In this document: piece after piece, positions 32,268 through 49,198 of the stretch
Layout of the letters: each line of letters opens with the position of its first letter
Position numbering within the stretch: the first letter of the stretch is position 1
Assembly: GCA_013177825.1 (NCBI GenBank)
Contig: JABLXX010000001.1
Location: forward strand, 720,936-784,935
Source of the DNA: Syntrophaceae bacterium
Lineage (GTDB): Bacteria > Desulfobacterota > Syntrophia > Syntrophales > PHBD01
Direction: 5' to 3'
DNA length: 64,000 bases
Made by a program: the position numbers and the translations under genes
The notes under the pieces: model-generated
What the model was told of the DNA's origin: nothing
What the model saw: only the letters and a program-made list of their open reading frames with translations
The model's database searches: none

Positions 32268-35200
32268 ATGGAAACGAGAAAAAAAGTGAATAGAAGAAAT
32301 TATTTGTTCATTTTCGCAATTTTGTTGGCAATCCTCCTTTTCGCCTCACCTACTTGGTCAAGATGTCCCGGTGTAGGTGAAGTTAGCTCGGTCGTCATTA
32401 TCGATGGAGACGATGCTTGTTTAGATGGGGTCTCTGCAAATAACGCTTTGGAAGCATATATATATGGTTCGATCATTACTTCAGAAGGTCAGGCCGTCGT
32501 AAATAATAGTCACGATGACAATACAAAAGTTCGAGTTTATGCAACTGGCCAACTTACGACATCTTGGGAAAAGACTGTAGAGATATTTGCTACAGTTGAA
32601 ACACATAATAGTGCTGAAATTGTTAATCTTGGAGCTATCTCCAGCGATCATAATGCCGGTATCCGTGTGCGCGGTGGTCAAGCACTTGTCACAAACAATG
32701 GATACATATTTGGAGGACAATATGGAATTATGGCAGATGACAAAACTGCCAATCATAGTATTCGAAATGAAGTATCTTCCACCACCACAGTAAAAAACAC
32801 GATAAAAGGAGGTGTTGCAGGCATCCTGATTTCGAACGGCGATGTCATAAATGGTAAGGATGCTAAGATTATCGGTGGTGAGTCCGGAATCGAGGTTCAA
32901 GGTGGCGGGTCAAAGGTCAAGATCACAAATGATGGAGGTGACATCACTGGTGGTAAGAACGGGATCAAGGTCAATGAAGGAAGGGGAGATGTCACGATCG
33001 AAAATACGGGAGGCAATATCACTGGTAATGATTACGGAATCAAGGTTGAAGGAAGTGGGGGAGGCGTCACGGTCGACAATACGGGGAAGATTGAAGGTGA
33101 AAATGCGGACGGCATCCGTCTTGAAGGGACCGGATCCACCGTCAACAACAAGGAGGGGGGAACGATCAAGGGAGGAGTCGTCGGTATATCGGTAGTGGAG
33201 ACGGCTACAATTACCAATGAGAATGGTGCGACGATTCAAGGGACAAAGACGGGTGTTCGATACGAGCAATACAATACGTTCACAAACGATGGCAAGGTAG
33301 AAGGTACGGAGGAGGGGGGCATAGCTTTTGGAAAAGGTGGCGAACTCATCAACAATGAAACCGGTGAAGTGACCGGTAACGCGTATGCAGTATATACAGG
33401 AACCTATAATGACGATCCGACAAAGCAAACAGATAAACTCATTGTAACCAATTATGGCACCCTTTCAGCAACCGGTCCGAATGGAATTGGACTGGTGATC
33501 GGCAACGCCGAGTCAGACATCACCAACAAATCGCGAGGAAAAATAAAGGGCACAAAGTACGGCGTTTATGTCCTGGAGAACGGTAAACTGAAGAACGAAG
33601 CAGGTGCGACGATTATCGGCGGCACAGCAGGTGTAAGATTTGAGAACCAAGCAGAGTTTACAAACAGTGGCAGTATAGGCGAGATGGACCAAAAGACAGG
33701 CAAGGCTTCCGGCAAAGACGGTGTCGTTTTCGCGAACGGTGCGACATTATTTGCGAATGAATCCACCGGTTTTGTGGTCGGCAATGAGAACGGGGTAAAA
33801 TCCATCGGCGACGCAACGGTGATAAATAAAGGAACCATCACAGGTGGGGAGTATGGGGTGAGGGCCGTTGCCCGTGATGATGGCAGCGGCGGAAAACTGA
33901 GCTTAACGAATGAAGGGACCGTCAGCGGCGGTACAACGGGAGTTGAGGCCAACGGTGGTGATATTACGAACACAGGGAAAATTATTGGCGGGACTAATGG
34001 TATTAATATCTTCAGTGCAAGCACCGGGAACATGGAGATTACCAATTATGGGACAATTACCGGCGAGACGGGGTACGGGATTAATGCCAATCATAATGGA
34101 TCCGCTACAATCACAAATTCGGGGACAATCGAGGGAGCGATTCGAGGCATCGACATAAATAAAGGCAAAGTCATAAACAAAGCAGGTGCCAAGATCACGG
34201 GCGGCGAGAACGGCATTCGTGTTTATAAGAACGCTGTCATTGAGAACTACGGGACCATCAGCGGTGGGACGCAGAACGGCATCTATCTTGACGAAAACGG
34301 GACCGTCAACAATCGGGCGGGGGGATTGATTTGGGGAGATACATATAACGGCATATGGGCGAGGGGTACGAGCACGATCACCAATGCCGCAGGCGCAACG
34401 ATCCACGGGCAAACCACAGGGGTCCTGTACTCGCAAAACAACACGTTCACAAATGACGGCAAAATTGAGGGCGTCACTGGTAACGGTGTTGAATTCCAGG
34501 ACGGCGGCGAATTCACCAACAACGCCACCGGTGAAGTAACCGGTGGAAAGTATGGGGTGGCGACGACCGGCGGCACGATCACAAACGACGGGATTATTAG
34601 CGGTGGTCGAAGCGGTATTTATACAGGCGGGGAAAGCACCGCGAACCTGGAAATCGTCAATCGGGGGACAATCAGAGGTGATGCATTATACGGGATTGAG
34701 GCCCGGCATAAAGGGGCAGCCAATATTACAAATTGGAATAATATATACGGCAAGTATCGGGGTATCGAAATAAATAACGGTACGGTTACGAACAAGGCTG
34801 GTGCCAATATTACGGGCGGCGAGAACGGCATTCGTGTTTATAAGAACGCTGTCATTGAGAACTACGGTGCCATCAGCGGTGGGACGCAGAACGGCATCTA
34901 TCTTGACGAAAACGGGACCGTCAACAATCGGGCGGGGGGATTGATAGAAGGAAAAACATATAACGGCATCTGGGCAAGGGGTACGAGCACGATCACCAAT
35001 GCTGCAGGCGCAACGATCCGCGGGCAAATAACGGGGATTTTGTACTCGCGATACAATACGTTCACAAATGACGGAAAGGTGGAGGGCGTCACTGGAAACG
35101 GCATCGAATTCCAGAACGGCGGTGAATTCACCAACAACGCCACCGGTGAAGTAACCGGTGGAACGTATGGGGTGGCGACAACCGGCGGCACGATCACGAA

Positions 35201-38200
35201 CTACGGGAACATTGAGGGCGGCGATGCCGGGGTCGCGATGGGCGGCGGCACACTGTTAAACAACAACCTGATTTCCAGCAAGGGCACAGGCGTTCTGGCC
35301 GGGGCAGCTACCGTCGATAACAACGGAACCATTACCGGTGATGAGACCGGTGTTTCGATCAGCGGTGGCACACTTACGAATGACAATATAATTTTTGGAG
35401 GGATCACGGGTGTTTTAAGCAGCGGTGGTAACGATACAAACAACAGCATGATTTCCGGTGGTGAAACGGGTGTTGTGGTTATCGGGGCGGCTACTTTCAA
35501 TAATTACGGAACAATTGGAGAAATCGTCCAGGACGGGGAAGTCAAACAGACAGCTTTGACTGGTGTTGAGATATATAATGCCAATGCGATCGTAACCAAT
35601 AAAGGCTGGGTGACGACAGAAGGGAAAGTAAAAGGCGGTACGGTAAAAGGAACAAAATACGGCGTCCATCTCAAAAATAACAGCACGTTGACCAACGAGA
35701 AGGGAGCAACTGTCAGTGGCGGCGTGAATGGGATTGAGGTTGAATACGGTAACGTTGAAAACTACGGAGATATCCAGGGTGGTACTGGTTCAGCCATTCA
35801 TGTAGCCAGCGGCGGCTATGGCAAGCTTTATAATTATGCCGGAGGCAAGGTTACAGGTGAAACGTCCGGTACAGCCGTCCAAGTGGACAAGGACGCATAT
35901 GCCTACGTTGAGAACCAGGAGGGCGCAGAAATAAAGGCGGAAGGCAAGGCGATTGACCTCCTGGACGGGGGAAAGGGCGACATCAAGAACAGCGGAGAGA
36001 TCGAGGGGACCGGGACGGAGGGAACCGGGATTCATGTGGGCAAGGCTATGGATGTGGACGGCAAACTGGTACTTTCGGCCGTTGTGACGAATGAGGCCAC
36101 GGGGAAGATCAGCGGCGGCAAGGACGGTATGCTGATAGACGGCCTGAGTGTAATTTACAACTATGGGGAGATGAGGGGTGGTACTGGTTCAGCCATTCAT
36201 GTGGCCAGCGGCGGTCATGGCGAGCTTGTCAATTATGCCGGCGGCAAGGTTACGGGGGGTACGTCCGGTGCAGCCGTCCAGGTGGACAAGGACGCGTATG
36301 CCTATATTGAGAATCATGAAAAGGGAGAGATCGAGGGAGAGACGGCGATCGGCATCAAGGATGGGGGATCGGGCGACGTCGTGAATGTCGGTACGATCGA
36401 GGGGACCGGGACAGAGGGAACCGGGATCCATGTAGGGAAGACTACAGATGCGAACGGTGAACTGGTTCTTTCTACGACTGTAAGGAATGGGACCACAGGG
36501 ACGATCAGCGGCGGCAGGGACGGTGTGCTGATAGACGGCCTGGGTTTAATTTTAAACTACGGGGAGATGAAGGGTGGTACGGGTTCAGCCATTCATGTGG
36601 CCAGCGGTGGTCATGGCGAGCTTGTCAATTACGCCGGCGGCAAGGTTACGGGGGGGACATCCGGTTCAGCCGTCCAGGTGGACAAGGACGGGTATGCCTA
36701 CATTCTGAACCAGGAGAACGCAGAGATAAAAGGGAACGAGTCTGTCATCGATGTTAAGGGGGCGAGCGACATTGAAAACAGCGGCACGATTCAGCAGGAG
36801 AGTAAGTCCGGTACCGATGCTCAGAGTTTCTTATCGGAAAGCAGCATCATTAAAGCCGATGGGACCGTCAGGGCCGCCATCGGCGGCAACAATGCAGGTA
36901 CAGTCACCATCCTCAACAAGACATTGGGCACCATCAAGGGGGAGAGCGGAATCTTCCTGACCGGTACCGGCAACGACACACTCGACAATTACGGTACGAT
37001 CATCGGCACCGGCGGCACGGCCGTCAATATGGGGGGCGGCGATGACACGGTCATCCTGCGTTCGGGATCCCGGGTCACGGGTAACATGGACGGCGGAACC
37101 GGAACCGATTCCATCCTTTTCGAGGGATCCGGGGAAGTTATGAGCGGCACGGCCCTCAATTTTGAAAGCATCACGAAGACAGGCTCCGGGACGTGGACCG
37201 TCAACGGCGACCTCCACAGCGGAAAGACCATATCCGTCTATGGCGGCAGCACAAGCATCCTGAAGGTCAATGGTGATTATATACAGGATGCGAATTCGAC
37301 CTATATCGTGGAGTTCTTGGATGGGTATGCGGGAAAGATCCACGCCACGACGGCGCACCTCAATGGCGGCCTGGTCGTGGCCCTTGGGTACATCCGGGAA
37401 GGTGTCCACACGATCCTTGAGACGGAAAAAGGTGTGACGGGCACGTTTGACGGGCTCGGTGAACCGGGGGTGGAGCATAAGCTTGGCCGCTATATTTCGT
37501 ATGTGCTTCTCTATGACGACAAGAAAGCGGCCATTTCCTACTTCTGGCGGTCCAGGCACTTCGCGGAAGACGCCCTGACCCGAAACGAGAAGGCCGTCGC
37601 CTATTATCTGGACGGCATTTACAACAACCTTTCCGGGGATCTGGCCAACAACGTCTTCCGGGAGCTGATCAAGATGGACGATCCCATGCTCTTCCGCTCG
37701 GCCCTCAACCAGATGGGAGGGGCGAGCCATACGGCCTTTGTCACCGTCGACAAGGACCGCCAGAGCCATTACTACCGGAGCCTCCTCCGGCGCGAGGCGG
37801 ACCTTCCGTTCAAGACGACGGCGGACGAAAAACTCCAAAGCTTCCTGGGACAGACTGCTGCCATGGATGTCGACCAGATTTCTAATGCCCTCGCTGCCGT
37901 CGCCGCTCCCCTGGCTCACATCGCCGGCGGGATGGGGCTTCCCTGGAGCGTCTGGGGCAAGAGTTATGCAACGAAAGGCGAACGCCGGGGAGACGACATT
38001 GCATCGCGGTATGATTACTGGATGGGGGGAGCCCTGTTCGGGATGGATTATCGGCCGCTGCCGGAGCTTCGGCTTGGCGTCTCCATCGGGTACTCGAAGA
38101 CGGACATGACGATGAAGGACCTTCAGGACAGCGGCCAGGAGGACAGCTTCCAGAGTTCGCTGTACGCGTCTTATTCCCAGGACAACTGGTATGTCGATGT

Positions 38201-38774
38201 CGCACTCACCCAGGCCCGCAACAACTACACCATGAGCCGCTCCATTGACTTCGGCGAGATCTCACGGACAGCCGAGAGCAGTTACGACGGGTACGAGTTT
38301 TCAGGATACGCCGAGGCGGGCTACAGGCTGCAGGCGCGAGGTTTCCAAATCATGCCGGTTGTGTCCTGTCAGGCCCTCCGCCATCACCGGAACGGCTTCC
38401 GGGAGAGCGGTGCGGATTCCTTGAATCTGATCTCGGAAGGCGAGGATACCGACTCGCTGCAGACTTCCCTGGGTATGAAGATCAGCAGAACGTTCAATGC
38501 CGGCGAGAGACTTACATTAACGCCGGAATTCTCCGCCCGTTGGATCTATGAATTCGGCGATCCGGAGGCGCTCCTGAATGCCCGTTTTGCCGGTGCGCCA
38601 GCCGGCTCGTTCGCAGTGTACTCCGATAACGCCCGCCGGAGCAGCGCCGCCGCCACGTTGGGGGTCACCGGCGACATGGGAAAAAGCCTCGGCTTCTTCC
38701 TCCATTACGACGTCGAGCTGAGGGAACGCCAGGCCAGCCACGCCGCGAGCGGAGGTCTGCGATACAGCTGGTAG
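32268..38774 (+). CDS. Giant autotransporter (type Va) with repetitive passenger
   Basis: 2168 residues. A basic N-terminus and hydrophobic core (about residues 12-30) form an extended signal peptide. The passenger, about residues 40-1750, is a Gly/Asn/Thr-rich beta-helix built from short strands such as TITNAAGATI, NTFTNDGKIEG and GEVTGGKYGV. It contains large internal duplications. A junction segment (GDDTVILRSGSRVTG, SITKTGSGTWTVNGD) is typical of the autochaperone region. The last 290 or so residues are the outer-membrane beta-barrel (PF03797 type), from PWSVWGKSYATKG to the terminal GGLRYSW ending in an aromatic residue. No protease triad was seen in the passenger; adhesion or aggregation is likely. 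The passenger DNA is lower in GC than the barrel. Confidence 0.93.
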   Translation: METRKKVNRRNYLFIFAILLAILLFASPTWSRCPGVGEVSSVVIIDGDDACLDGVSANNALEAYIYGSIITSEGQAVVNNSHDDNTKVRVYATGQLTTSWEKTVEIFATVETHNSAEIVNLGAISSDHNAGIRVRGGQALVTNNGYIFGGQYGIMADDKTANHSIRNEVSSTTTVKNTIKGGVAGILISNGDVINGKDAKIIGGESGIEVQGGGSKVKITNDGGDITGGKNGIKVNEGRGDVTIENTGGNITGNDYGIKVEGSGGGVTVDNTGKIEGENADGIRLEGTGSTVNNKEGGTIKGGVVGISVVETATITNENGATIQGTKTGVRYEQYNTFTNDGKVEGTEEGGIAFGKGGELINNETGEVTGNAYAVYTGTYNDDPTKQTDKLIVTNYGTLSATGPNGIGLVIGNAESDITNKSRGKIKGTKYGVYVLENGKLKNEAGATIIGGTAGVRFENQAEFTNSGSIGEMDQKTGKASGKDGVVFANGATLFANESTGFVVGNENGVKSIGDATVINKGTITGGEYGVRAVARDDGSGGKLSLTNEGTVSGGTTGVEANGGDITNTGKIIGGTNGINIFSASTGNMEITNYGTITGETGYGINANHNGSATITNSGTIEGAIRGIDINKGKVINKAGAKITGGENGIRVYKNAVIENYGTISGGTQNGIYLDENGTVNNRAGGLIWGDTYNGIWARGTSTITNAAGATIHGQTTGVLYSQNNTFTNDGKIEGVTGNGVEFQDGGEFTNNATGEVTGGKYGVATTGGTITNDGIISGGRSGIYTGGESTANLEIVNRGTIRGDALYGIEARHKGAANITNWNNIYGKYRGIEINNGTVTNKAGANITGGENGIRVYKNAVIENYGAISGGTQNGIYLDENGTVNNRAGGLIEGKTYNGIWARGTSTITNAAGATIRGQITGILYSRYNTFTNDGKVEGVTGNGIEFQNGGEFTNNATGEVTGGTYGVATTGGTITNYGNIEGGDAGVAMGGGTLLNNNLISSKGTGVLAGAATVDNNGTITGDETGVSISGGTLTNDNIIFGGITGVLSSGGNDTNNSMISGGETGVVVIGAATFNNYGTIGEIVQDGEVKQTALTGVEIYNANAIVTNKGWVTTEGKVKGGTVKGTKYGVHLKNNSTLTNEKGATVSGGVNGIEVEYGNVENYGDIQGGTGSAIHVASGGYGKLYNYAGGKVTGETSGTAVQVDKDAYAYVENQEGAEIKAEGKAIDLLDGGKGDIKNSGEIEGTGTEGTGIHVGKAMDVDGKLVLSAVVTNEATGKISGGKDGMLIDGLSVIYNYGEMRGGTGSAIHVASGGHGELVNYAGGKVTGGTSGAAVQVDKDAYAYIENHEKGEIEGETAIGIKDGGSGDVVNVGTIEGTGTEGTGIHVGKTTDANGELVLSTTVRNGTTGTISGGRDGVLIDGLGLILNYGEMKGGTGSAIHVASGGHGELVNYAGGKVTGGTSGSAVQVDKDGYAYILNQENAEIKGNESVIDVKGASDIENSGTIQQESKSGTDAQSFLSESSIIKADGTVRAAIGGNNAGTVTILNKTLGTIKGESGIFLTGTGNDTLDNYGTIIGTGGTAVNMGGGDDTVILRSGSRVTGNMDGGTGTDSILFEGSGEVMSGTALNFESITKTGSGTWTVNGDLHSGKTISVYGGSTSILKVNGDYIQDANSTYIVEFLDGYAGKIHATTAHLNGGLVVALGYIREGVHTILETEKGVTGTFDGLGEPGVEHKLGRYISYVLLYDDKKAAISYFWRSRHFAEDALTRNEKAVAYYLDGIYNNLSGDLANNVFRELIKMDDPMLFRSALNQMGGASHTAFVTVDKDRQSHYYRSLLRREADLPFKTTADEKLQSFLGQTAAMDVDQISNALAAVAAPLAHIAGGMGLPWSVWGKSYATKGERRGDDIASRYDYWMGGALFGMDYRPLPELRLGVSIGYSKTDMTMKDLQDSGQEDSFQSSLYASYSQDNWYVDVALTQARNNYTMSRSIDFGEISRTAESSYDGYEFSGYAEAGYRLQARGFQIMPVVSCQALRHHRNGFRESGADSLNLISEGEDTDSLQTSLGMKISRTFNAGERLTLTPEFSARWIYEFGDPEALLNARFAGAPAGSFAVYSDNARRSSAAATLGVTGDMGKSLGFFLHYDVELRERQASHAASGGLRYSW
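34196..35199 (+). repeat. Near-identical 0.39-kb direct repeat inside the autotransporter passenger
   Basis: 34196-34584 is repeated at 34811-35199, offset exactly 615 bases (205 codons). The first 130 bases are almost identical and the rest differs at scattered positions. The in-frame offset suggests recent duplication within the gene. Confidence 0.85.
35775..36720 (+). repeat. Three in-frame tandem modules in the passenger
   Basis: The segment encoding GGTGSAIHVASGG and later AVQVDKDAYAY starts near 35775, 36174 and 36570. The spacing is 399 and 396 bases (133 and 132 codons). Copies two and three are closest to each other. Confidence 0.85.
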
Positions 38775-43590: not shown

Positions 43591-44376
43591 TCAGCTTCCC
43601 GTTTTCGCATCCGGAAACAGGGCGTCCCGCGGGAAACCGAAAATCACGCTCTGGATAAGCCTCGTCGCCGCCGCCGTCTGCTCCGCCGTGAAGTAGGCGC
43701 CGCGGATCCTGTGAACCCTGCTGCGGTATTCTCTTGCATGTTCTTCTGACCAGAAGAAGACGCTTTCCCGTCAGAATGAGTCGATGATGCTTTCCTCCTC
43801 CAGGTTGATCAGATCCACGACCGGCGAAAACGCGATCGGATTGCAGCCCTCCTCTTTCACCCGCCAGCGGAGATCGCTGTCGATCGAGATCTCCATGGGC
43901 CGGCAGCAGTGGGCGCATTCCGTTTGAATCGTGACCGACAGAGCCGTCCTGCGTAATTGCCCTTGCACGAAGGGCGTCGCGAATGCGTCCATCGCTCAGG
44001 CGGCGTAAATCGTTTCTCCGGTGTCGAAGATCACACGGTGCGGCGTCTTCTCGACGGTGACCGGGTAGGCCCATACGACCTCGCCTGCCTGGTTGCGGAA
44101 GAGGAAGGTCATGTGCTTTTCCAGGTCGTCCAGGATCGCATTCACCGTCCCGAGGGGCATAGACAGGGAGTCCGCGATGTGCCCGGGGGGCATGGGCCTT
44201 CCGAGGCGGGGGAGTTCCCGGACGACGAAATGGTGAACCGCGTTGTGCTCCCGGGTCATGAAACCGCGATGGGCCCCGTATTTTCTCGCAGCCTCGGGGA
44301 GCTTCTTCCTCCACAGAAAGGGGGGGACATCGATGACAAACCTCCACAATCCCATCATGACCCTGTTTTTACCCAT
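43591..44376 (-). CDS. MerB (organomercurial lyase)-like protein with two in-frame TGA codons at both catalytic Cys positions
   Basis: Start ATG 44376 has ribosome site GGAGG nine bases upstream; the frame gives 261 residues ending at TGA 43591. TGA codons occur at 43998-43996 (residue 127) and 43773-43771 (residue 202). Residues 75-125 resemble the MerB winged-helix part (GHIADSLSMPLGTVNAILDD, then VEKTPHRVIFDTGETIYAA). TGA127 then gives U-A-M-D, matching MerB Cys96-x-x-Asp99 (YAWCALD in E. coli). TGA202 gives DSF-U-RESVFFWSEEHA, matching the Cys159 region (SFCCHVHFFAS). Homology continues past both. Each TGA is followed by a perfect hairpin at SECIS distance. Carbon-mercury (or other carbon-metal) bond cleavage is inferred. 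The gene lies 65 bases after a MerR-type regulator. Confidence 0.85.
43741..43758 (-). promoter_or_regulatory. Candidate SECIS hairpin for Sec202 with GGUC loop
   Basis: On the minus strand TTCTTCT-GGTC-AGAAGAA is a perfect seven-pair stem. Its loop GGUC is that of the E. coli fdhF SECIS, and it starts 19 bases after the TGA (18 in fdhF by my count). Confidence 0.82.
43959..43975 (-). promoter_or_regulatory. Candidate SECIS hairpin for Sec127
   Basis: On the minus strand GCCCTT-CGTGC-AAGGGC is a perfect six-pair stem with a five-base loop carrying G at its second position. The loop begins 26 bases after the TGA at 43996, within the range of bacterial SECIS elements. Confidence 0.7.
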
Positions 44377-44441: not shown

Positions 44442-44975
44442 TCATTCCCTCGACCATTCCCGGATCCTGTCGATCTCGTCGCCCGTGATTCCCAGTCCCT
44501 CGAGAAATTCCTGATGGGACAGGGGGGCCATATTCTCGAAGGCCTTGTGCCACTTCACCAGCCCCTCGTCATCGAGGCCGGCGGCCCGGAGCATGGCGGC
44601 CCAGCTTTCCCCGTCGAGAACGGGATAGCGATCCCGGAGCGTATCGTCGTCGAGCATGCGGATGATGACGTGCTGCTGTTCCCGAAGCTGGCTGATCTCC
44701 CTGCCCAGCTCCAGCAGTCTTTTCTCGAGGACGTCGCGCAGGCTGTCCCGGGGAGACAGCAGGATCCGGGCGATCGCGGAGAGAGACAGCCCCAGCTGGC
44801 GATACATGCAGATCGTTTCCAGCCGCCGGGCGTCCTCCTCCGTGTATCGCCGGTAGTTGGCCCGGCTCCTGCCGGAGGGCGCAAGCAGTCCGATCGAGTC
44901 GTAGTAGAGAAGCGTGCTCCGGGACAGCCCGAAGCGCCGGGCCAACTGCCCGATGGTCATGGTCTTTCCTGTCAT
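44442..44975 (-). CDS. MerR-family transcriptional regulator
   Basis: 177 residues. The MerR helix-turn-helix is at the N-terminus (TIGQLARRFGLSRSTLLYYD, GLLAPSGRSRANYRRYTEED), followed by the dimer coiled coil (EKRLLELGREISQLREQQ) and an effector domain of about 60 residues. Only one Cys is present, so the three metal-binding cysteines of mercury-sensing MerR are missing and the ligand is unknown. An alternative start is at 44960. It is the first gene of the pair with the MerB-like selenoprotein and has a promoter with the 19-base spacer that MerR proteins act on. Confidence 0.92.
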   Translation of the reverse strand: MTGKTMTIGQLARRFGLSRSTLLYYDSIGLLAPSGRSRANYRRYTEEDARRLETICMYRQLGLSLSAIARILLSPRDSLRDVLEKRLLELGREISQLREQQHVIIRMLDDDTLRDRYPVLDGESWAAMLRAAGLDDEGLVKWHKAFENMAPLSHQEFLEGLGITGDEIDRIREWSRE

Positions 44976-45197: not shown

Positions 45198-46112
45198 TCA
45201 TCCTTCATCCACCCCCGGGGCTTCCACGCCTCCCCGTTGTTCCTCCCCCAGAAAATCCTCGAAGTGGTACCACTGGTCCGGATGGCTGCGGGCTTCCTCC
45301 TCCAGGATCCGGGCATAGGCCTGAACAGAGCGGCGGACGGCTTTGTCCCTGTCCTTCCTCGAAGTGGCTTTCACGGTCCAGGGCGGGCTGACCCGGATGC
45401 GGTAGCGGCCCCCGGCTTTGCGGTAGACAAAGAACGGCAGGATCGGTGCCCCCGACAGAAGGGAGAAGAGGTGGGGCGTCTCGGGGAGAAGGGTTTCGTG
45501 GTCGGCGAAGACGGCCGGGACGGACCGCTGGCTTTCGTGCCAGAGGCGGTCCCCGGTCATGGAGACCAGTCCGCCTTCGCGGAGGAAGCGGATCGCCTCG
45601 ACGAGATCGAAGGGCGAAGCCGCATCGGGAGATGCCGTCACGAGCCGTATGCCCCGCTCCGACAGGCTCTGCTTCTGCATCCGCTCGATCTGCTCCCGGT
45701 GTTTCTCTCCCACGTAAAGGAGAAGCTTCATCCCCTTTCCTTTCAGGAGGTGGGCCGAGACCTCCCAGTTTCCCAGGTGGGACATGAGCAGAACGCCTCC
45801 CCGTCCGGAGGCGACAGCCTCTTCCAGGTAATGAAATCCTTCGCTGTCGTAGGGGATTTTACCCCGTTCCTGGAACAGGAAACGGTCCAGGAAGACGGAG
45901 GTGAAGTTCTGGTACTGCCGCCAGGTCAGGAGGAGAGCGCGAAGAAGACCCCGCTCCGGGAGGAGAATCCGGTAAAAGCGGACACTCCGGGCAACCCGTC
46001 CGGGGAAAAACAGGAAGTAGCCGGCAGCGATAAACCACGCGAAAAACCGGAACACCCAGGGGCCGGCGTAACGGGTGAGGGTCGTGAGGAACCGGTAAAA
46101 GGCCAGCTTCAT
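45198..46112 (-). CDS. LpxL/HtrB-family lipid acyltransferase
   Basis: 304 residues from ATG 46112, overlapping the upstream stop (ATGA). An N-terminal membrane segment (VFRFFAWFIAAGYFLFF) precedes the HxxxxE acyltransferase motif in LLMSHLGNWEVSAHLL (about residue 110). VSMTGDRLW and FFVYRKAGGRYRI follow. The family adds acyl chains to lipid A or, in aryl-polyene clusters, to lipid-like polyene products. Position as last gene of an operon with an MMPL exporter fused to a methyltransferase favours the second role; that is inference. Confidence 0.88.
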   Translation of the reverse strand: MKLAFYRFLTTLTRYAGPWVFRFFAWFIAAGYFLFFPGRVARSVRFYRILLPERGLLRALLLTWRQYQNFTSVFLDRFLFQERGKIPYDSEGFHYLEEAVASGRGGVLLMSHLGNWEVSAHLLKGKGMKLLLYVGEKHREQIERMQKQSLSERGIRLVTASPDAASPFDLVEAIRFLREGGLVSMTGDRLWHESQRSVPAVFADHETLLPETPHLFSLLSGAPILPFFVYRKAGGRYRIRVSPPWTVKATSRKDRDKAVRRSVQAYARILEEEARSHPDQWYHFEDFLGEEQRGGVEAPGVDEG

Positions 46113-49100
46113 GATTCGTATTCCCGGGGCTTCCGGGCAATGAACCACCAGACCTCGCGGTCCGGCGACATGGATTCCGGAAGGCCGACTCGCAGACCCG
46201 TTTCTTCGATCGATCGCCGAACCTCTTCGACGGTGCGGAAGCGTGCCTGGCCGCCCTGCCGTTTCAGTCGCCTCTCCTCGAACCGGCGTTCCGGCGAGGG
46301 GGCCGGAAAGGCCGGGACGATGGCCCGGAGGACGAGGACGCCGCCCGGCTCCAGTACCGCTGCAATCCGGTCAAGGGTCAGGCGGAGTTCCCCGTCGTCG
46401 AGCATGTGGACCACGTCGAGGAGAAGCGCCGTGTCGACCGGGCCCTGGAGGGACGGCAGGTTCGGGGCCTTCCCGACCGTCATTTCACCCCTGCCGCCGA
46501 TGGCCCGGGAGGCGACCCGGACCCGGTCGGAATCGGGATCGATGCCGAAGACCCGGGCATCCGGATGGATCTCCAGGAGCCAGGACGAGGGGATGCCGTA
46601 TCCGCAGCCGATGTCCAGGATCCTCCGGGGACCGGAAACGAAGGAAGCCAGGCGCGGGAACATGGGATCCAGGCGCAGCTTGAAAAACACGAAGGCCCGC
46701 ACGTATCCCTCGATACGGCGGTAGCGGGCTAGCACGCGCCGGGCATGATTTTTCGATCCGGCCTCCACGGTTTCTTCCGGCAGTGCGATCGGCCGGTAGA
46801 GCCGCCGGAGGAGAGGCGGCACGATGGCCGTTGTTCCGAGGAAGGAATAGCCGATTCCCAGGGCGAGGGCGATCCCGGCGCTGCTCAGCATGGCATGGCT
46901 TGCCAGGGCCAGCACTCCGAACCCCAAAAACGTGGTGGCGAAGGAAAGCAGGACCGACAGGCGGACGAGTGCCATCGAGGGATGCTTTTCATCGAGGTAT
47001 CGCTGCTGGGAGCGGACGATGTACATGGCGTAATCGGTTCCCATCCCGATGATGACGGCGGACACCATGATCGTCGGGATGCCCGGGGGCCTTCCGATCA
47101 GGTGGAGGGTCCCCAGGGTGCAGATGAGCGCGAAGGCTGTAGGGGTCAGCGCGATAAGGGTCAGCCGGAGGTCCAGAAGATACAGCGCCGCCACCAGGAG
47201 GGTCAGGAGGCCGACAATGAGCGCCACCTGGAGAAAGCCTTCCAGAATGACCCTGCCGAGACGTTCCGTGAATACGCCTGGGTCGAACAGCCGGGCCAGG
47301 CCGGAGGAATGAAGGCGGTTGAAGAAGTCTTCTCCCCGGTAGGCGGGACCGGGCAGGACCGTGACGAACTGGCGCCAGGGGCCCGTTCCGGCGGCCGGTG
47401 CGATTCCCACCATGCCGTACAGGGACGCCGGAATCTCCACGGCGGCTCCCGCCGGCGATTCAAGCTGCCGCAGGAACGGGTCAAAGGTCCAGGGCCGGAA
47501 GCCTTCCGCTGCCGCCGCCTCGCCGAGTCTGTGCTTGCAAGCCTCCTTTCGCTCCGTCGTCCAGAAGGCCTGCCATGCCAGCCGGTTCGCCGCGGCCCGT
47601 TCCGGTCCCGGGAAGGCCATGGAGGCCACGAAGGCCGCCGACAGGGTTCCTCTGGCGAGTTCCTCGTCCAGCAGGGCCGTCAGGCGGTCTCCCTTTTCCC
47701 GCATCTCCCGATAGGTCTTCCCTTCGGACAGCAGGTAAACCCGGTTCAGGATGTCGCCCCAGGCCTGTTTCACCTCATCCTCCGCAGCCAGGGTTTCCGG
47801 GCGGACGGTGTTGAGGGACTTCAGGTCCACCTGGAAATCCAGCCGGGCAAAGGGCAGGAGAGCCAGGCACAGGGCCAGTGCCGCCCAGGGCTTCCAGGCT
47901 GGATCGGCGGAGGCCAGCTTCTCGGAGAAGCGCCGGAGCCAGGGAGTTCCCTCCCGGCCGGCCGGGGGCACGACGGGGAACAGGAACGGATAGACCAGGT
48001 GGACGAAAGCGAAGGTGAAAACGACGCCCAAGGCGGCGAAGGCGCCGAGTTGGGCCAGGGCCGGGAACCCGCTCAGGAACAGAAAGGCGAAGCTCACCGC
48101 CGTGGTCATCATGGCCAGGAGGCCCAGGGACCAGACCTCCCGCGTCGTGTCGAGCCCCCGGGTCTCGCGGGTCCGGTCGAGAAACAGGAGATAGGTGATC
48201 CCGTAATCGACGGTAAAGGATATGATGGCGCCGCCGAAGCCGATGGCGAGGACGGAGATCGAGGACCGGAAAAGGGACAGGACGAAGTAGGCCAGGGCCG
48301 TTCCCATCAGGGCGGGAAACAGGGCGAGCAGTCCCAGGAGAGGGCGGGGGAATCCGATCAGCAGGAGGATGGCCACTGCCACGGTGGAAAAGACCATAGC
48401 CCGGCGGGTGTCCGTTTTGGCGGCGCTCTCATTGTCCAGGGCGGCCCGGTAGGCCCCGACGGGGGTCAGAATGAGCCGGGGCGGTCCGGGCCAGGTCCGG
48501 TTCAGTTCCGCCTGGATGTCCGCGAAGAGACGATCCGCCCGCTTGGCGAAGTCGGTGGCCGTGGCCGAGGTCCCCGGTTCGGCGACGATGAGGACCCGGG
48601 TGCCGTCGGCGGCGAGAAGAATGTCTCCCGCCGGCCGGGCGCCCTTCGCCGGGGCCAGGTGCGACATCCGGCCGAGAATGAGAAAGCGGAGCCCCAGCGG
48701 ATCCGAGGCCAGCCAGCGGGTCTGGCCGATCCCTTCCAGTCCCTGAATCAGGGATGCCTGGGAGCGGATCGCCGTCCGGACGGCCGGTTTCTCCAGCAGG
48801 GGGGCGACGTTGCGCTGGAGGTCCTGCTCCGTGAACAGGAAGGGCAGGTTTTCCACGACCGCGTCCGCCAGTGTCGGGAAAGCCCCCATCTCCGCATCCA
48901 GTCCTACCCTGCGGAAGAGACCGCTGTCCCTCATCTTTTTGATGACGAGGGCCGCTCCTTCCTGAAGGGCCCGGGGATCCACCGGATCGCAACGGAGATC
49001 CGCGACGATGCGGTCCTGCATGGGATGGCTTTTCAGGACGGCCCTCGCGTCCGCCAGGACGGGGTCGCCGGCGGGGATGGCGTTGAGGATGTCCGTGTCC

Positions 49101-49198
49101 ACGCCCATGCGGCTCTTTCCGATCATGAACAGGGCCGCCACGATGATGACGACGGCCAGGGCCACGGACCAGCGCAGAACGGGAGGGGATTTCTTCAT
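46109..49198 (-). CDS. MMPL/RND-type exporter fused to a C-terminal SAM-dependent methyltransferase
   Basis: 1029 residues. Residues 1-790 or so form an RND/MMPL exporter: an N-terminal membrane helix, periplasmic domain, six-helix bundle with FGGAIISFTVDYGITYLLFL, a second periplasmic domain, and a second bundle with VSAVIIGMGTDYAMYIVRSQ. Residues 800-1029 are a class I methyltransferase (RILDIGCGYGIPSSWLLEIH, then VFGIDPDSDRV and TALLLDVVHMLDD). MMPL proteins of this type export lipids, including aryl polyenes. The fused enzyme would methylate the cargo or its precursor on the cytoplasmic side. It overlaps neighbours by four bases at both ends. No break is seen, so the fusion appears real. 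Confidence 0.9.
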   Translation of the reverse strand: MKKSPPVLRWSVALAVVIIVAALFMIGKSRMGVDTDILNAIPAGDPVLADARAVLKSHPMQDRIVADLRCDPVDPRALQEGAALVIKKMRDSGLFRRVGLDAEMGAFPTLADAVVENLPFLFTEQDLQRNVAPLLEKPAVRTAIRSQASLIQGLEGIGQTRWLASDPLGLRFLILGRMSHLAPAKGARPAGDILLAADGTRVLIVAEPGTSATATDFAKRADRLFADIQAELNRTWPGPPRLILTPVGAYRAALDNESAAKTDTRRAMVFSTVAVAILLLIGFPRPLLGLLALFPALMGTALAYFVLSLFRSSISVLAIGFGGAIISFTVDYGITYLLFLDRTRETRGLDTTREVWSLGLLAMMTTAVSFAFLFLSGFPALAQLGAFAALGVVFTFAFVHLVYPFLFPVVPPAGREGTPWLRRFSEKLASADPAWKPWAALALCLALLPFARLDFQVDLKSLNTVRPETLAAEDEVKQAWGDILNRVYLLSEGKTYREMREKGDRLTALLDEELARGTLSAAFVASMAFPGPERAAANRLAWQAFWTTERKEACKHRLGEAAAAEGFRPWTFDPFLRQLESPAGAAVEIPASLYGMVGIAPAAGTGPWRQFVTVLPGPAYRGEDFFNRLHSSGLARLFDPGVFTERLGRVILEGFLQVALIVGLLTLLVAALYLLDLRLTLIALTPTAFALICTLGTLHLIGRPPGIPTIMVSAVIIGMGTDYAMYIVRSQQRYLDEKHPSMALVRLSVLLSFATTFLGFGVLALASHAMLSSAGIALALGIGYSFLGTTAIVPPLLRRLYRPIALPEETVEAGSKNHARRVLARYRRIEGYVRAFVFFKLRLDPMFPRLASFVSGPRRILDIGCGYGIPSSWLLEIHPDARVFGIDPDSDRVRVASRAIGGRGEMTVGKAPNLPSLQGPVDTALLLDVVHMLDDGELRLTLDRIAAVLEPGGVLVLRAIVPAFPAPSPERRFEERRLKRQGGQARFRTVEEVRRSIEETGLRVGLPESMSPDREVWWFIARKPREYES

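Follow-up and report, generated by a model that had tools for sequence, protein, structure and literature searches.

The question raised by this locus is whether a reading frame broken by two in-frame TGA codons, in the places of both catalytic cysteines of MerB, encodes a protein with two selenocysteines (Sec), and what such a protein would do. The window is the whole stretch of DNA analysed, 64,000 nucleotides long. The gene lies on its minus strand (43591..44376) and comprises 261 codons and a final TGA (43593-43591), with GGAGG 9 nt upstream of the ATG at 44376. The in-frame TGAs are codon 127 (U127, 43998-43996), in the context AAUAMD, and codon 202 (U202, 43773-43771), in the context SFURES. 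The first-pass annotation, made from sequence alone, had described one frame with these two TGAs and MerB-like sequence throughout, and this was confirmed. Its product is almost certainly a two-Sec protein, a conclusion that rests on comparative sequence, without protein or selenium data.

The read-through protein matched the Pfam family PF03243 (MerB) with 54.2 bits against a cut-off of 27, over residues 107-236, a span that includes both TGAs. In a profile search of its own genome this gene was the only PF03243 match, with the two TGAs inside a single match. Profile A1, made from 29 family members, found MerB2 5c17 (9e-8) and MerB 1s6l/3f0o (2e-4) in the PDB. In the alignment to MerB 1s6l, U127 corresponds to Cys96, Asp130 (43987..43989, minus strand) to Asp99, Cys154 to Cys117 and U202 to Cys159; the roles of Cys96, Asp99 and Cys159 in MerB have been described (PMC4525700, PMC8261052). 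Asp130 and Cys154 are invariant in the 68 family sequences covering them, and the second cysteine of the C154-x-x-C157 motif (43906..43917, minus strand) is present in 63. The AlphaFold2 model (pLDDT 89) superposed on 5c17 with Z 22.9 (205 aligned, 2.5 Å) and on 3f0o with Z 20.8; MerB structures overall gave Z 20-23 and the first non-MerB row Z 5.2. The top Foldseek match was also a MerB structure (3f2f_B, 1.1e-11), and identity to MerB crystal structures in the Foldseek alignments was 17-20%. Membership in the PF03243 superfamily is thus supported by gathering score and by fold. The NCBIfam MerB equivalog cut-offs were missed by a wide margin (53/193 and 43.8/200 bits), and among the residues expected of an equivalog Asp99 is met by D130 and Cys at 96 and 159 is not, both being TGA. 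The first-pass annotation had placed the TGAs at MerB Cys96 and Cys159 with Asp99 beside, and had named a match to the alkylmercury lyase HMM as a check; the placement held and the match was positive.

The pattern scan of genome contigs returned 70 loci, all titled as MAGs, giving 71 rows with the window. Both sites are covered in 68 rows (the window and 67 relatives), where 67 are TGA/TGA and one is Cys/TGA (L062). The other three are fragments, two with TGA at the second site only and one with Lys there (L070). The peptide patterns omitted both Sec positions, so that Cys forms were not selected against, and included VFFWSEEH, so that the presence of FFWSEE in 71/71 rows is partly ascertainment. 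Profile searches, free of this bias, identified carriers at E <= 1e-10 in 13 of the 155 genomes from the window's class and in 4 of the 399 drawn from the class of the L062 genome; in the latter search at most 6 first-look candidates were scored in the listed genomes. Twelve of the 13 carriers had whole genes with two TGAs, and in the remaining one (G036) the gene is split by a frame break, the second piece having two TGAs; three of the 4 had two TGAs and the fourth is the L062 gene with one. Several of these loci repeat pattern-found genes. A Cys/Cys member was not found at E <= 1e-10 in the 155 and 399 genomes. Motif variants among the profile-found loci were QFFCSEEH (L102), CVFFRSEDDA (L103 and L104) and IFFWSEEH (L100, L107 and L108). 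L103 and L104 (genomes G034 and G028) form a diverged two-TGA branch that has FFRSEDDA and lacks Cys157, the corresponding stretches being CANSSSP and CANSLHP.

Going by the titles that submitters gave, 12 phylum-level groups are represented among the 68 longer rows, and 7 rows belong to none; labels drawn from 'Deltaproteobacteria' titles are unreliable. Only Actinomycetota, among six phylum-level groups tallied, forms one side of a branch in the tree. L062, with Cys127, is sister to L060, a TGA/TGA gene (support 100/97). L070 was considered as a non-Sec member and rejected, being a remnant in broken sequence. This decayed remnant (L070:4001-4171) and the frame-broken copy in G036 (C7:42342-43038) reflect either loss or assembly error. 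Seven pattern matches in viral contigs included no relative. The 51 matching plasmid records all showed identity below 60% and in no case covered 80% of the query; 9 of the 10 listed among them are annotated merB or alkylmercury lyase and one merA.

Several expectations of the first-pass annotation bear on these counts. It had suggested looking for Cys/Sec pairs at positions 127 and 202, and one Cys/Sec member (L062) was found. A lack of Cys homologues, given as a possible refutation, was not borne out in that the TGAs align with MerB Cys, with the correction that the Cys/Cys counterparts are distant canonical MerBs. Sequencing error, another of its refutations, is countered by the recurrence of the two TGAs in many separate assemblies. 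The argument that chance stops would not fall on exactly these two residues also stood, TGA/TGA in 67/68 rows being far beyond chance.

Each Sec codon is followed by a SECIS-type hairpin. Published rules for bacterial SECIS elements ask for a loop of 3-9 nt with G in the first two places, an upper stem of 4-16 bp, a distance of 16-37 nt between UGA and loop and an energy <= -7.5 (PMC13188914), and both window sites meet all four. The apical hairpin of the first element (43959..43975, minus strand), encoding part of TPFVQG, has 6 bp and a loop CGUGC after 26 nt, with -14.5 kcal/mol for the 45-nt stretch. The second element (43736..43763, minus strand; apical stem 43741-43758), encoding FFWSEE, has 7 bp and a loop GGUC after 19 nt, with -11.3 kcal/mol. 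The E. coli fdhF SECIS has the same apical loop, GGUC. Across the family, stem, loop and energy at U1 (the U127 site) were met in 64 of 65 distinct sequences, the exception being L067, without a standard hairpin 1; at U2 (the U202 site) stem and loop were met in 68/68 sequences and energy too in 61/68. Among the profile-found loci U2 stem and loop were present in 16/16 distinct sequences, 15 with the energy, and at U1 at least 5 pairs were present in 16/17 loci. The exception there is the Cys127 gene (L110, the same as L062), where TGT is followed by only 2 pairs and the U2 hairpin is intact. Since L062 is sister to the TGA/TGA gene L060, it is read, by inference, as having exchanged Sec for Cys and lost the hairpin that served this site.

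At the RNA level the first site shows compensatory changes and the second is almost invariant, synonymous bases included. Pairing at U1 was kept in 442 of 520 cells with 21 two-sided changes, and with partners slid by -2, -1, +1 and +2 the paired cells were 217, 213, 299 and 323 and the two-sided changes 1, 0, 10 and 4. At U2, 696 of 748 cells were paired, with zero two-sided changes among the pattern-found rows; in L103 and L104 the loop-closing U-A pair is changed to C-G, a compensated hairpin accompanied by Trp to Arg. Codon use in the hairpins is nearly fixed compared with the rest of the same genes. At U1 it comprises CCC in 65/65 (elsewhere 247/851), TTC in 67/67 (460/752), GTG in 65/67 (396/1132), CAA in 57/64 (165/500) and GGG in 64/67 (181/748); at U2, TTC in 70/70 at each of two codons (471/768), TCA in 65/70 (95/783) and GAA in 69/70 and 64/70 (499/1044). 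Fisher values were <= 3.4e-14 at U1 and <= 6.1e-14 at U2, kinship being ignored. An 18-base core, TTCTTCTGGTCAGAAGAA, is identical in 58/70 rows. In synonymous shuffles the fold energy fell sharply for stretches starting at UGA1 (mean Z -1.52, s.e. 0.11, against -0.41 three bases earlier), and no drop was seen at UGA2 (-0.03, the lowest value being -0.93 nine bases earlier). The flat result at UGA2 may be put down to FFWSEE itself spelling complementary arms. It is inferred that PFVQG and FFWSEE double as SECIS stems.

The protein is also under selection on both sides of the TGAs. In five pairs dN/dS was 0.09-0.30 before U1, and in four of them 0.14-0.27 between the Sec codons and 0.08-0.12 after U2. 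For the window against L002 the ratio was 0.59 both between the Sec codons and after U2, but these values rest on only 2 and 1 synonymous changes, too small a number to count. A Sec system in the same genome, a check named by the first-pass annotation, which gave its absence as a refutation, is present: tRNA-Sec with anticodon UCA (73.8 bits), SelA (606 bits, cut-off 268), SelB (363 bits, cut-off 242) and SelD (392 bits, cut-off 125), the latter with one in-frame TGA in GAGUACK. This SelD (L090, G000:C2:171816-172742) is itself a selenoprotein, as SelD is known to be. Among 50 other carrier genomes, hand-picked from 69 loci, SelA was identified in 47, with 45 above the cut-off. In the window's class it is found in 137/155 genomes and in 11/13 carriers; its presence within the class says little because 137/155 genomes have it.

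Tests of the gene's context for a link to mercury were weak or negative. A MerR-family regulator (44442..44975, minus strand) lies 65 nt upstream on the same strand. Of the 61 loci with at least 450 bases upstream, 40 had a same-strand ORF ending near the gene, and a MerR protein occupied the same place in 7 of these 40 relatives; with the window's own the upstream ORFs were MerR in 8/41 and MarR in 5/41. The window's MerR-family protein did not reach the cut-off of any metal-specific model among its matches. A mercury operon context was rejected, no neighbour cluster being present in more than 7/71 loci (simple ORF caller). MerA over the cut-off was not identified in the window genome (best match 323.9 bits, cut-off 454), and HgcA is absent from it. 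A link to mercury methylation was rejected as well: HgcA occurs in 10/13 carriers and in 68/142 other genomes (Fisher p 0.079, kinship uncorrected). The gene is either solitary or next to a MerR or MarR regulator, and not part of a mer operon. Mercury would be the natural first guess for the metal, and no neighbour proves it. Three further observations were made in passing. A partial HgcA match with one TGA inside was seen at G130:C56:20526-21065, Sec-containing HgcA being already listed in PMC13188914. In the window, the ORF at 32268-38774 (plus strand, 2168 residues) is repetitive and looks like an autotransporter-type surface protein, and the ORF at 46109-49198 (minus strand, 1029 residues) appears to be a fusion of an RND-type exporter and a methyltransferase domain, both as read from the ORF sequence.

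The reading preferred here, with a probability of roughly 0.72, is a MerB-fold protein with two Sec, probably a soluble organometal lyase; the lyase activity is inferred from MerB, and neither protein nor enzyme data exist. Under this reading the two UGA codons would be translated as Sec, each served by its own downstream SECIS hairpin, and two selenols would be placed where MerB has two mercury-binding thiols, beside the conserved Asp. By inference from MerB, the selenolates would capture R-Hg+ or another soft organometal, Asp130 would relay a proton to the carbon and the hydrocarbon R-H would leave, so that a carbon-metal bond would be cleaved. The metal may then be held as a bis-selenolate and later be taken off by cell thiols, by sulfide or by Cys154/Cys157 nearby; removal by thiols or sulfide is proposed because the window genome is without MerA over the cut-off. 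Any role of Cys157, next to Cys154, in passing on the metal or in reduction is guesswork. The central claim of the first-pass annotation, that both catalytic Cys of a MerB homologue are replaced by Sec, is supported, production of the protein and its substrate not being shown. Its suggestion that two selenols are apt for mercury or another soft metal or metalloid remains inferred, and no context names mercury.

Of the rival explanations the one that survives best, and remains possible, is a genuine two-Sec MerB-fold protein which is not a lyase, such as one that binds, senses or carries out redox chemistry through a Se-Se or Se-metal centre, acting for example in soft-metal sequestration or as a switch with the nearby CxxC. 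In its favour are the stand-alone gene without mer partners, the extra near-invariant Cys157 and the family-specific residues around the site. Against it are the functional equivalents at all MerB catalytic positions, with Asp130 in 68/68 rows. It is very unlikely that the protein is a version of SaoL, the MerB relative with one Sec known from the SAO system. The SaoL model does pick up all 29 members at E <= 1e-3, but the window protein scores 41.4 bits against a cut-off of 140, it has two Sec where one, in a CU motif, is listed for SaoL (PMC13188914), and Sao models had no match at E <= 1e-3 among four nearby window proteins. That the gene is a pseudogene or owes its TGAs to sequencing errors, as two in-frame stops and the remnant and frame-broken copy elsewhere might suggest, is all but excluded by the TGAs shared in nearly every row, by carriers in unrelated genomes and, in four of five pairs, by purifying selection that continues downstream of each TGA. 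Equally remote is a reading of TGA as some other amino acid, for instance Trp, or simple readthrough: the frame would be open under any sense reading, but 25 of the 39 window open stretches of at least 350 codons (shadow frames included) end in TGA, both sites align with Cys, the sole variant has Cys, and tRNA-Sec with UCA is present.

The two-Sec organometal lyase also admits a bolder version, which is compatible with the evidence though rather less likely than not. In it the gene would represent an unrecognised family of bis-selenolate organometal lyases in many phyla of uncultured bacteria, independent of mer, with substrates including organometals or organometalloids poorly handled by thiol MerB, and with PFVQG and FFWSEE shaped by the SECIS hairpins. 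The family would have Sec in both of the metal-binding places of an enzyme fold that is well understood, and since MerB chemistry has been worked out in detail the question of what Sec offers over Cys is directly testable, with the natural Cys/Sec relative L062 as a bonus for the comparison. It may also explain how organometals are broken down where merA and a recognised merB are both missing, and would point to an unrecognised selenium-based handling of toxic metal compounds. Gene surveys stopping at TGA would see only the first 126 residues.

A two-Sec MerB was absent from the 2026 table of 119 selenoprotein families or subfamilies (PMC13188914), from NCBIfam 20.0 and from the literature searched, Haft and Gwadz 2023 and Haft and Tolstoy 2025 being covered only via PMC13188914. 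In that table SaoL, given a single Sec within a CU motif, is the sole row identified as a MerB relative; the one MerB-like selenoprotein listed in PMC9312934 has the same representative, and the deep-Sep paper (PMC12013277) contains no word beginning with mercur or lyase by word counts. In NCBIfam 20.0 the 29 members match only MerB and SaoL models at E <= 1e-3. The two-Sec family is therefore apparently unlisted, whereas MerB relatives using Sec are already known. MbdU (NF045648) and NF041115 (metal-binding protein, putative mercuric reductase) also have two Sec and are metal-binding by name, but they are other families, neither model matching the window protein (E <= 1) or the 29 members (E <= 1e-3). 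The nearest published relative is SaoL (NF040728; Haft and Gwadz 2023, via PMC13188914), a MerB-like organometallic lyase that also uses Sec; it differs in its CU motif, the two Sec here being at the Cys96 and Cys159 places and the SaoL equivalog cut-off being missed. MerB itself (PF03243; 3f0o, 1s6l and, as MerB2, 5c17) has Cys where both Sec are found here, and the present family is without mer neighbours and under the NCBIfam MerB cut-offs, whereas the fold, the equivalents of Asp99 and Cys117 and the metal-binding positions are the same in both.
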